From NCBI GenBank assembly GCA_012840125.1, contig DULZ01000029.1:1-42790 (forward strand): a DNA stretch of 42,790 nucleotides, given 5' to 3'. How positions within the stretch are numbered: position 1 is the first letter of the stretch; each line of letters opens with the position of its first letter. The notes below the pieces were generated by a model, which made no database searches, was not told the origin of the DNA, and saw only the letters and a program-made list of their open reading frames with translations. The stretch is from Clostridia bacterium (GTDB lineage Bacteria; Bacillota; DULZ01). Below, one piece after another: positions 5,951 to 21,530 of this stretch. The position numbers and the translations under genes are program-made.

Positions 5951-5969
5951 TTGGAACGGAGGCATGAAC

Positions 5970-7670
5970 GTGCTGGAACAGTTGCGGGTGGAAAACTTCG
6001 TTCTGGTAGAAAAAGCTTTCCTGGATTTCCATCCCGGTTTAAATATTTTAACCGGGGAAACAGGAGCAGGAAAATCCCTGGTAGTAGATGCTTTAGGACT
6101 TCTCCTGGGTGAACGGGCATCTACCCAGTACATCCGTACCGGAGCGGAAAAGGCAGTGGTGGAAGGCTATTTCACTTCCCAGCACCGGGAGATTGCACGG
6201 GTCTTAGAGGAGTTCGGCCTCGACGTTTCTCTTGACGAAGGTTTGCTGCTTTCCAGGGAAATAACCAAAAGCGGCAGGAACGTCTGCCGGATTAACGGCA
6301 GGATTATCCCCCTGAACATGTTTCAGGCCATCGGCAGCTACTTGGTGGATATTCATGGACAAAATGAGCAAGTGTCTTTGCTGTCACCGGAGAGGCAGCT
6401 GGCCATGCTGGACCTCAGAGGCGGGGACGAACTGATTCAGGTCAGAGAAGAGGTTACCTCTTTATTCAAGCAATTGCAAGCAGCTAAACGGGAACTGGAA
6501 TCCTTGCAGGGCAGCCCGGAGGAGAGAGAAAAGCTGCTGGCCTATTACCGGTTTCAAATAGAAGAAATTGAAAGAGCTCAATTGCGAGACGGGGAAGAAG
6601 AAGAACTGGTGCAACGGAGACAAATACTGCTTAACCAGGAGAAGCTCCTGACCGGAACTGCGGAAGCATATGATTTAGTTTTTAAGGGAACCCGCATGCC
6701 CTCGGCTTATGACCAGTTAAGTCAAGCCGTTGCGAAGTTAGAAACCCTGGTGCCTATTGATCCAAGTTTGAACGAGGCACTGGTGAGTACCAGGAACGCT
6801 TTGTACCAGTTAGATGAGGTTGCCAGGGAGCTGCAGGACTATTTGTCCATGGACGATTTCGATCCGGCTGAGCTGGAAACAATTACGCAACGGCTGGAAT
6901 TAATCGGTGACCTAAAACGGAAGTACGGCGGCAGTATCCAAGAGATCGTATCCTATAAAGAAGAAGCAATCAAAAAATTAGCAATCTTGCAGGCACAAGA
7001 AGGCAAGCTGCAACAATTACTGGCAGAAATCAAGGGGCTCGAAAACAGTTATTACCGGAAGGCGCAAGCATTATCCCACTGCAGGCAGGAAGCGGCCCGC
7101 CGGTTGGAACAAGAGATGCAGGAAGCTTTACGGCAATTGGACATGCCCATGGTGCAGTTCAAGTGCCATTTTGCGCAAAAAGACCGTCCTGATGAAACCG
7201 GGATTGATGCCATGGAGTTTTATCTCAGTCCCAATTTGGGCGAACCGCTCAAACCCTTGGCCAAAATTGCTTCCGGCGGTGAAATGGCCAGGATTATGCT
7301 GGCCTTTAAAGCTATCTTGGCCCAGGTAGAGGCTGTAGAAACCATGATTTTTGACGAAGCCGATGCCGGCATCGGCGGGATGACCGCGCTCAAAGTTGGG
7401 CAGAAACTGGCGGAGATCGCCAAATCCCGCCAGGTGATTTGTATTACCCACTCCCCGCAAATTGCCAGCTACGGCGATGTCCATTTTCGTCTTTACAAGG
7501 AAAACAATAGCGGCCGCACGGTCACTAAAATCGAGACTTTGACGGATACTAAGAGAGTAGAAGAATTAGCGCGCATGCTGGGAGGCGGGCCCACGGATAT
7601 GACGGCCATCCGCCATGCAGAAGAACTCATCAAGGAAGCGTCCCGGGAAAAGCAACTTTCAGACTGCTAA
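5970..7670 (+). CDS. recN: DNA repair protein RecN
   Basis: An SMC-like ATPase of about 566 residues that acts early in double-strand break repair. Walker A GETGAGKS is at residues 29-36, coiled-coil segments rich in E, Q, K and L fill the middle (about 150-380), and the ABC signature ASGGEMARI and Walker B MIFDEADAGIGG are in the C-terminal half. GTG 5970 is preferred because GGAGG (5958-5962) sits 7 bases upstream. The ATG at 5964 would leave only one base of spacing. It is the last gene of the vegetative unit; only T-rich sequence without a clear hairpin follows, so read-through toward spoIVB is possible. Confidence 0.96.
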   Translation: MLEQLRVENFVLVEKAFLDFHPGLNILTGETGAGKSLVVDALGLLLGERASTQYIRTGAEKAVVEGYFTSQHREIARVLEEFGLDVSLDEGLLLSREITKSGRNVCRINGRIIPLNMFQAIGSYLVDIHGQNEQVSLLSPERQLAMLDLRGGDELIQVREEVTSLFKQLQAAKRELESLQGSPEEREKLLAYYRFQIEEIERAQLRDGEEEELVQRRQILLNQEKLLTGTAEAYDLVFKGTRMPSAYDQLSQAVAKLETLVPIDPSLNEALVSTRNALYQLDEVARELQDYLSMDDFDPAELETITQRLELIGDLKRKYGGSIQEIVSYKEEAIKKLAILQAQEGKLQQLLAEIKGLENSYYRKAQALSHCRQEAARRLEQEMQEALRQLDMPMVQFKCHFAQKDRPDETGIDAMEFYLSPNLGEPLKPLAKIASGGEMARIMLAFKAILAQVEAVETMIFDEADAGIGGMTALKVGQKLAEIAKSRQVICITHSPQIASYGDVHFRLYKENNSGRTVTKIETLTDTKRVEELARMLGGGPTDMTAIRHAEELIKEASREKQLSDC

Positions 7671-7736
7671 ACGCATTTTTACATTTTTTTCATCATTCGA
7701 TGCCGCAACTGTCAGCTGGCCTTGGGATGTTTTTGT

Positions 7737-7767
7737 GATTATAAAAAACTCCTGTCGGGACAATTTA
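7737..7767 (+). promoter_or_regulatory. Candidate forespore (sigma-F/sigma-G) promoter of spoIVB
   Basis: GATTA (7737-7741), a 16-base spacer and GGACAATTTA (7758-7767) agree with the remembered sigma-F pattern GYWTA-N15/16-GGNRANAHTR at 4 of 5 and 6 of 8 informative positions. Read as sigma-G, the -10 would be CAATTTA. In B. subtilis spoIVB is a forespore gene (mainly sigma-G), so location and biology agree. The match alone is modest. Confidence 0.45.
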
Positions 7768-7807
7768 AGAAAGACCTCTTCAAAACGTTAAATCCATCGA
7801 CAGGAGT
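7748..7807 (+). promoter_or_regulatory. Inverted repeat that can hide the spoIVB ribosome binding site
   Basis: ACTCCTGTCG (7748-7757) and CGACAGGAGT (7798-7807) are perfect reverse complements over 10 bases. The right arm contains the spoIVB ribosome binding site AGGAG (7802-7806). The left arm lies between the -35 and -10 of the candidate forespore promoter, so only transcripts that begin further upstream, such as read-through from recN, would contain both arms. Confidence 0.6.
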
Positions 7808-7818
7808 GTGAGCAACCA

Positions 7819-9150
7819 GTGCAGCCAAAACGATCTTGGACAGGCTTAGTATTGGCAATCTTAGTAGTTTTTATTAGTCTAACACCTCAATTGCGAAGTT
7901 TTTATTCTATGCCAAGTTTGCTAAAAATCGGAGTTGGAGAACAATTAGGAATACACCTGCCCCTGCCGCCGTATTTGTCCAACCAATTGAAAGTCGAAGT
8001 CAGCACCAATCCCAAGGATCTGCTGGATTTGAAAACCGGAACAGTTTCCCTCAACAGTTTCTTGCAGGAGACAACGGGCCTGGTAGCCACCAAACCGGGT
8101 GAAGCCAGCATCAGGCTTAAGCTCTTCGGTCTCATTCCCGTCAAAAACATGGATGTGGACGTGGTACCCCGCATTGAGCTGGTTCCCGGCGGGCATGCCA
8201 TTGGCATCTTATTAAAGGCACAAGGAGTGACAGTAGTCGGTTTTGCTCCCGTTATCGATGAAAACGGGAAAGAACACAACCCCGGCCGGGACGGCGGCCT
8301 CGCCATAGGGGATGTGATCGAAAAGGTGAACGGGATACCGGTGTCTACCGATGAAGAAACGGCCAGATTAATTCACCTGGCCGGTAAGAAGAAAAAACCG
8401 GTGAGTTTAGCCATCTGGCGAGACAACAAGCAGTTAACCATGCAGGTAAACCCGGTGATGTGTAAGGACACTAAACGCTTCCGGATTGGGGCGTACATTA
8501 GAGACAGTGCCGCCGGGGTAGGTACATTGACTTTTTACGATCCTAAGACTAAAATCTACGGCGCTCTGGGCCACATCATCGCCGATGGGGAAGTAAACCG
8601 GCAGATTGCCCAGGGGGAAGGGAAAATCGTCAGCGCCTCCATTCTCGGCATCAATCAAGCCCGTCGTGGTCAACCCGGTGAAAAAATAGGCACTTTTCAC
8701 CAGTCTGACAAAGGCATCATTGAGGGAGATATCCGGAAGAACACCAATTACGGTATTTTTGGCTTTCTTAAAACACCCCTTGAAAACGAAATCTATCGCG
8801 AACCGTTGCCCGTAGCTTTTGCCCACCAGGTGAAAACCGGACCGGCGGAAGTACTGACTGTGGTGGAAGGGGATAAAATAGAGCGTTTTTCCGTGGAGAT
8901 TGTACGGATTAATCCTCACCAGACCACTAACGGCAAGAATTTATTGATTAACATCACCGACCCCAGGCTTTTGGAAGTTACCGGCGGCATTGTGCAAGGC
9001 ATGAGCGGGAGCCCCATTATTCAGGACGGCTATCTGGTGGGAGCGGTGACCCATGTGTTGGTAAATGAGCCCACGAAAGGGTACGGTATCCTGGCCGAAT
9101 GGATGCTGACGGAAACCGGTATATTGGAGCAAGCCCAAGAAGCAGCATAA
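7819..9150 (+). CDS. spoIVB: SpoIVB serine peptidase (sigma-K checkpoint signal)
   Basis: A 443-residue protein. An N-terminal hydrophobic segment (about residues 9-28) directs it across the forespore membrane. A PDZ domain (about 115-215) with DGGLAIGDVIEKVNG is followed by the peptidase domain, which has GALGHII (catalytic His) and the nucleophile motif GMSGSPI (catalytic Ser) followed by GAVTHVL. Family knowledge: SpoIVB is made in the forespore, secreted to the intermembrane space and cleaves SpoIVFA, triggering pro-sigma-K processing. It starts with GTG 7819; the ribosome binding site AGGAG is 12 bases away, longer than usual. It is followed by a terminator and spo0A, as in Bacillus. Confidence 0.97.
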   Translation: MQPKRSWTGLVLAILVVFISLTPQLRSFYSMPSLLKIGVGEQLGIHLPLPPYLSNQLKVEVSTNPKDLLDLKTGTVSLNSFLQETTGLVATKPGEASIRLKLFGLIPVKNMDVDVVPRIELVPGGHAIGILLKAQGVTVVGFAPVIDENGKEHNPGRDGGLAIGDVIEKVNGIPVSTDEETARLIHLAGKKKKPVSLAIWRDNKQLTMQVNPVMCKDTKRFRIGAYIRDSAAGVGTLTFYDPKTKIYGALGHIIADGEVNRQIAQGEGKIVSASILGINQARRGQPGEKIGTFHQSDKGIIEGDIRKNTNYGIFGFLKTPLENEIYREPLPVAFAHQVKTGPAEVLTVVEGDKIERFSVEIVRINPHQTTNGKNLLINITDPRLLEVTGGIVQGMSGSPIIQDGYLVGAVTHVLVNEPTKGYGILAEWMLTETGILEQAQEAA

Positions 9151-20744: not shown

Positions 20745-21530
20745 ATGGTCACCCGTTTATCGGACATGAACCTGCCTCGTTATCCCTTGCTCTCCGATGA
20801 TGAGATGACAGAGCTGCTCAAAAAAGCTAAAGCCGGGGACGCAAAGGCCAGGGAAAACCTGATCAATTGTAATTTAAAGCTTGTTTTCAGCCTGGTACAA
20901 CGTTTCGACAATAGGGGCTATGAATTAGAAGACTTGTTTCAGATTGGCACCATCGGTTTAATTAAGGCCATCGATAAATTCGATTTTTCCTACAATGTCA
21001 AGTTCTCCACCTATGCGGTACCGATGATTATCGGGGAAATAAAAAGATTCTTGCGCGATGACAATCCAATTAAAGTCAGCCGTTCCATGAAAGAAACCGC
21101 TTACCGGGTGCACCGCCTGCGGGAACAGCTGACGAAAAAACTGGGGCGGGAACCATCCATTTCCGAATTGGCTGAGGAATTGAACGTCAAGCCGGAACAG
21201 ATCATTGCCGCTTTGGATGCCATCCAGCAACCCGGTTCCATCTATGAAACCCTTTACCAGGATGAGGGAGATCCCATTTTTTTGTTGGACCAGCTCAGTG
21301 ATCCGAAAGACCATCAAGCTTGGATTGACAAGCTGGCTTTGAGGGAAGTATTGGAAAAACTTCCGGAACGGCATAAGCAGGTCATTTTGATGCGGTTTTT
21401 CGAAGACAAGACGCAAACAGAAGTAGCCCAAACCGTCGGCCTTTCGCAGGTACAAATTTCCAGAATCGAGCGGCAAGCTTTGAAAATCATGCGAGAACTA
21501 TTAAACCAAGATGGCAATAGTGCAAGATAA
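20745..21530 (+). CDS. sigF: RNA polymerase forespore sigma factor SigF
   Basis: A 261-residue sigma-70 family protein. Region 2 contains LVFSLVQRF, DLFQIGTIGLIKAIDKFD and FSTYAVPMIIGEIKRFLRD. Region 3 contains ELAEELNVKPEQI. Region 4 has the helix-turn-helix KTQTEVAQTVGLSQVQISRIERQ. Family knowledge: SigF is the first forespore-specific sigma factor and turns on spoIIR, dacF and sigG. AGGGGAGG lies upstream of ATG 20745 and the spacing to spoIIAB is 12 bases. Length and order are standard. Confidence 0.98.
   Translation: MVTRLSDMNLPRYPLLSDDEMTELLKKAKAGDAKARENLINCNLKLVFSLVQRFDNRGYELEDLFQIGTIGLIKAIDKFDFSYNVKFSTYAVPMIIGEIKRFLRDDNPIKVSRSMKETAYRVHRLREQLTKKLGREPSISELAEELNVKPEQIIAALDAIQQPGSIYETLYQDEGDPIFLLDQLSDPKDHQAWIDKLALREVLEKLPERHKQVILMRFFEDKTQTEVAQTVGLSQVQISRIERQALKIMRELLNQDGNSAR

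Follow-up and report, generated by a model that had tools for sequence, protein, structure and literature searches.

The window, by which we mean the whole 42,790-nt stretch of DNA analyzed here, carries on its + strand recN (5964-7670; an ORF of 568 amino acids with Pfam matches SMC_N and AAA_23) and, downstream of it, spoIVB (7819-9150), whose ORF of 443 amino acids starts with GTG and matches Pfam Peptidase_S55 (E = 1.1e-80) and PDZ. recN follows a compact run of same-strand genes and is the would-be source of RNA reading through into spoIVB. As the first-pass annotation had claimed, a perfect 10-base inverted repeat lies in this region: ACTCCTGTCG (7748-7757, + strand) is the exact reverse complement of CGACAGGAGT (7798-7807, + strand), with a loop of 40 nt. 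The right arm contains the Shine-Dalgarno (SD) core AGGAG (7802-7806), located 12 nt from the GTG at 7819, and pairs with the 16S tail at -14.4 kcal/mol. The left arm is situated inside the spacer (7744-7757) of a putative forespore promoter on the + strand, formed by a TTATA -35 element (7739-7743) and the -10 element GGACAATTTAAG (7758-7769). This confirms the place proposed for it between the two elements, where it abuts the -10. Judging from the distance to the -10 element, forespore RNA would start near 7774-7777.

Folding supports the proposal that the repeat can mask the ribosome binding site. In the RNA spanning 7671-7860, an additional G-U pair (7758/7797) extends the repeat to an 11-pair helix, which is present in both the minimum free energy (MFE) structure and the centroid and is not formed by an RNA starting at 7774. 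The long leader as a whole is not unusually stable (z = -0.98), and it is therefore the position of the helix that counts. The computed cost of opening the SD is 12.0 kcal/mol in the long RNA, 4.0 kcal/mol in the short RNA, and 5.3 kcal/mol with shuffled upstream sequence, with none of 40 shuffles reaching the value of the long RNA. When the start codon is included, the corresponding values are 13.5, 5.9, and 9.0 kcal/mol, the window's own p being.13. An intrinsic terminator at the repeat was considered and rejected: the right arm is followed by GTGAGCAACCAGTG, with no T run, and the element is absent from the terminator scan.

An inverted repeat as such is ordinary in this DNA, since perfect 10-base arms with loops of 3 to 60 nt occur at eight distinct places in the window. 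As for the match to the SD region, complements of at least 10 bases to 7797-7821 arose in 26 of 20,000 dinucleotide shuffles of the 121 nt at 7671-7791. Moreover, spoIVB alone had a 10-base perfect upstream complement of its SD region among 161 genes with an SD from its own genome (crude gene calls on the window and on 20 stretches that total 204 kb of the 2.47-Mb genome). These figures bear on the possibility that the complementarity here is fortuitous, i.e., that an ordinary promoter and SD carry a 10-base match without effect in cells, with the phylum-wide signal described below arising from other lineages. A match this long turns up in about 1 of 800 shuffles, and the first-pass annotation had looked at many genes, which leaves room for coincidence; against it stands the singularity of spoIVB among the sampled genes.

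The promoter assignment draws on the relatives, whose spoIVB upstream regions share a motif of roughly GYATA, 14 to 15 nt, and GG(T/A)(T/C)AATTTAA, which we take to resemble the sigma-F/sigma-G consensus. The window's TTATA-N14-GGACAATTTAAG (7739-7769) is in register with the motif of many of them. The motif was derived from 30 initial loci, for which its p-values are therefore circular; among 96 loci fetched later, it was found at p ≤.01 in 69 and at p ≤.05 in 82, compared with shuffles. In an alignment of three genomes of the order, including that of the window, the block at 7722-7744 and the -10 region hardly vary, while the spacer differs. The left arm thus occupies a freely varying spacer, and the motif overlaps the masking strand. 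The conserved 23-nt block, TTGGGATGTTTTTGTGATTATAA (7722-7744, + strand), which includes the -35 element, shows one change across the three genomes and is kept almost letter for letter, beyond a promoter's needs. It also ends a weak terminator-like hairpin, and in one of the other two genomes (L003) it can pair with the leader (GGATGTTTTTGC/GCAAAAACATTTC). Separately, an extended SD, GGAG(N)GTGA with an optional extra base, is frequent at spoIVB (34 of 143 loci from L001-L178), and in these loci the start codon lies unusually far downstream.

Conservation of the pairing had been put forward as a check, and its outcome was mixed. The SpoIVB proteins of the order's two other genomes, L002 and L003, are 69% and 68% identical to that of the window, and the exact arms are missing from both, so that strict homology of the arms was rejected by the alignment. 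Complementarity between a locus's own arm and its own SD nevertheless recurs in other families, with the letters changing. In L002, a different spacer arm can pair with the SD and the start codon of that genome; the duplex (-21.8 kcal/mol) was matched by none of 300 shuffles and is present in the MFE structure. L003 has no spacer arm; in its long RNA, CGTTGGGGC, upstream of the promoter, pairs with GCCCCAGCG, whose first base is the last one of the start codon, and we count this pairing as weak. Neither genome is significant by ensemble opening energies, whether for the SD alone or for the SD and start codon. The absence of the window's pairing from both sister genomes is a further point for coincidence. 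Because the letters of an arm need not be kept for pairing to be kept, the test was moved to own-versus-other complementarity.

The phylum survey comprised 158 spoIVB loci (L001-L058 and L079-L178), of which 151 had a usable start and a motif scan, leaving 143 distinct cores and, after filtering for promoter p ≤.05, an SD duplex of ≤ -7 kcal/mol, and a distance of 24 nt or more between the -10 element and the start, 104 loci. The first tests on the promoter core were suggestive; on repetition with new loci, 15 of 75 scored in the segment immediately preceding the -35 element, which had been intended as a control, the excess seemingly coming largely from related loci. Family means and a wider segment were adopted for this reason. 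The 96 nt ending at the -10 element were complementary to their own SD at p ≤.05 against shuffles in 17 of 104 loci (mean z of -0.67 over 47 families, p =.0005), compared to 4 of 103 (mean z of +0.07) for the next 96 nt upstream. When SDs were exchanged between families, scored for 99 of the 104 loci, the own SD ranked in the best 5% for 23 and a reversed SD for 3 (family p =.004, or.028 without families f1, f14, f16, and f91). Full folds over the SD and start codon, a region chosen after L002 was found to hide its start codon, were significant at p ≤.05 in 40 of 148 loci versus 12 of 147 for the control (p =.0007 on 47 family means,.0023 without f1, f16, and f91). With the SD only, the numbers were 40 of 148 and 21 of 147, and outside f1, f16, f91, and f14 there was no excess in these SD-only folds (12 of 82 versus 12 of 81). 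Taken together, the fold and swap tests indicate an effect that is plain in a number of families and, when averaged, modest: throughout the phylum, each species' own SD or start is complemented by sequence in the promoter or immediately upstream of it more than by the controls. That even control segments pass at 12 of 147 loci gives coincidence at the window some further weight, but the excess concerns the very gene singled out in the own-genome sample, and we judge a fortuitous match unlikely, though far from negligible.

Since the wider segment and the follow-ups of f91, f14, f22, and f16 were chosen after the data had been seen, new family members provide the cleaner test. In f16, 10 of 21 new members were significant at p ≤.05 (control segment, 0 of 21), and by genus labels they fall in 7 of 13 genera. 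Comparison of own and exchanged SDs in 39 loci of this family gave p < 5e-5 when all 96 nt were used,.0015 with just the spacer, and.32 for the control, values that are optimistic owing to shared ancestry within the family. The arms are found within the spacer or at its end in L238 (TTACTTCCCG/CGGGAAGTGA) and L245 (TTTCCTCCCG/CGGGAGGAAA) and just upstream of the -35 element in L153 (CCCCTGAAAAA/TTTTTCAGGGG). In f91, three of four distinct new genomes were significant (L187 and L191 being one genome), with none in the control. Here, ACTCCCGA/TCGGGAGT in L182 and ACTCCCCA/TGGGGAGT in L183 differ by a compensating change, and the pairs TTGCGG/CCGCAA and TTACGG/CCGTAA are found in L179 and L180, respectively. 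As read from these sequences, the predicted arms of f16 and f91 change together and the pairing is retained. Two other families that had looked promising earlier, f14 and f22, yielded 0 of 5 and 0 of 4 significant new members. We also noted, in L179, L180, and L187 of f91, almost unbroken hairpins running from upstream of the -35 element through the SD to the start codon, with duplexes of -18 to -23 kcal/mol.

The way in which arms vary is informative about what the repeat could be. If the repeat were a DNA operator, bound by a regulator that controls transcription from the promoter, an arm overlapping the promoter would be in keeping with it, as we would expect of many operators. In other lineages, however, the pairing is retained although the left arm has other letters and a different precise position. 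This agrees with base pairing and not with the recognition of a sequence, and it makes an operator very improbable. Alternatively, the hairpin could be part of every spoIVB mRNA, with transcription starting upstream of 7748, and merely dampen translation. Such dampening is reported in PMC5942855 for a short hairpin over the RBS of B. subtilis sigG, and the spoIVB start is placed here by inference. The recurring promoter motif overlies the left arm, though, the arms of other families lie in or upstream of the promoter, and the excess in the leader itself is small (7 of 81 loci, family p =.14), so that constant dampening is also improbable, if slightly less so than an operator. The short sigG hairpin resembles that of spoIVB in covering the RBS of a forespore gene, but according to the same source it resides in the gene's own mRNA and always dampens translation 2- to 4-fold, with no discrimination between transcripts, unlike the lock proposed for spoIVB.

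Other genes were used for comparison. The next gene, spo0A, gave no signal (2 of 63 loci, mean z of +0.11). At distances matched to spo0A, spoIVB scored in 22 of 138 loci (mean z of -0.59), and in the 56 loci shared by both genes only 5 spoIVB regions did so (mean z of -0.28). In f16, no signal was seen for gpr (28 loci, p =.23); for spoIIR it was weak (28 loci, p =.006; promoter anchored, 18 loci, p =.03), two of 30 loci having been left out for each gene for lack of a usable start or as duplicates. Pyrimidine runs in the spacer of spoIIR complement the SD in L291, L294, L296, and L312 of f16, an example being ACCTCC/GGGAGGT in L312. With sigG as the positive control, 4 of 29 loci were significant at p ≤.05 (p =.0003 in the swap test). 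The arm of L315 consists of a long run within the promoter spacer and forms a duplex of -27.0 kcal/mol. Strong complements of the own SD were observed at the sigG genes of L315, L327, L335, and L323, positioned at the promoter motif in the first three. The sigG of the window's own organism (L332) was not significant (p =.205). A further sigma-70 family gene in the window, at 20760-21497, matches Pfam sigma-70 regions 2, 3, and 4 and scores 328 bits with the sigG model, below its cutoff of 457; it is probably sigF.

The source of the RNA to be silenced is less clear-cut than the first-pass annotation, which saw no clear terminator after recN, had supposed. Indeed, no + strand terminator between the two genes passes a strict scan, and the folding of 7600-7720 is poorer than that of its shuffled versions. 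In contrast, a loose fold-plus-T-tract test detects a weak candidate terminator at 7694-7735 (+ strand), a hairpin of -8.2 kcal/mol followed by TGTTTTTG (7728-7735). With compact same-strand genes and no strong terminator seen, read-through from recN is plausible in the window; in L002, a terminator is evident after recN. The prediction that masking should be stronger where a terminator is missing was not borne out, since 52 loci with a terminator had a mean z of -0.70 and 52 without had -0.76 (p =.34). Considering the weak candidate, the terminator of L002, and the lack of a relation between terminators and masking, the lock may be aimed at leaky RNA in general rather than at read-through from recN in particular. 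A search of PMC9931155, a paper on Rho, for spoIVB and recN returned no match.

We propose the following model. RNA entering from upstream, from recN and the compact cluster before it, would carry the left arm (7748-7757), which would pair with 7798-7807 and hide the RBS, leaving spoIVB poorly translated. RNA from the forespore promoter would lack the left arm, because this arm is spacer DNA of that promoter, and would be translated. The choice of promoter by the forespore sigma factor would therefore set translation as well as transcription. The logic first suggested for this locus fits its anatomy and draws good comparative support from its recurrence in other families; what did not hold is that the exact pairing is kept in the order and that masking is stronger without a terminator. 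On balance, and from sequence evidence, we consider it probable that read-through spoIVB RNA is silent and forespore RNA open by promoter choice. We are more tentative, with opinion nearly evenly divided, about the broader idea of a phylum-wide lock kept by selection on spoIVB (and sigG, perhaps spoIIR), whose key strand lies inside or just upstream of the gene's own forespore promoter and turns over in letters and place, so that promoter DNA would serve as an anti-RBS silencing stray read-through RNA.

The principle itself is already known, as described in two papers. In phage T4, long early RNAs of gene e, soc, 49, and I-TevI hide the start region, while RNAs from promoters just upstream of the RBS lack the 5′ strand and are translated (PMC3014915). 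The likeness to T4 drawn by the first-pass annotation is thus well founded, gene e following the same logic. That case was measured, with about 100-fold less lysozyme from the long RNA, whereas spoIVB is a bacterial sporulation gene whose lock is predicted from its sequence. Closer to our locus, a large hairpin was proposed to block translation of read-through RNA of B. subtilis sigG; transcripts made from the sigG promoter are unable to form it (PMC5942855, citing Masuda 1988 and Sun 1991). Like spoIVB here, sigG (spoIIIG) is a forespore gene behind another operon (spoIIGA-sigE); its hairpin has at least 20 pairs, compared to 10 or 11 at spoIVB. Furthermore, in contrast to B. subtilis sigG as far as that source describes it, the left arm at spoIVB is the promoter spacer itself, as is also the case for sigG of L315. 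We recognized no report of a translational lock on spoIVB in the literature searched, which omits most subscription papers; within this literature, what is new is the gene concerned, spoIVB, an arm that sits inside the promoter spacer, and an unexpectedly wide recurrence in which the letters change.

In B. subtilis, pro-sigma-K processing in the mother cell is triggered by SpoIVB, which acts as the signal from the forespore (PMC3789829 and PMC12251134), and the timing and compartment of SpoIVB therefore matter. We infer that the purpose of the lock would be to keep SpoIVB out of growing or mother cells. If so, forespore specificity would be enforced twice, by the sigma factor and by the translatable RNA, and what has been described to date for sigG would be a recurrent strategy. 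Read-through RNA seen in RNA-seq would then not necessarily imply protein, and the comparison of own against swapped SDs can be applied to find such locks at other genes. In the Rfam scan of the window, the spoIVB repeat matches no family, and a single element reaches the gathering score, an OLE RNA (RF01071, 556.8 bits) at 1-610. Its 5′ end is cut by the contig start, and it adjoins an ORF of 203 amino acids (604-1215) with no Pfam match and heads the cluster leading to recN.
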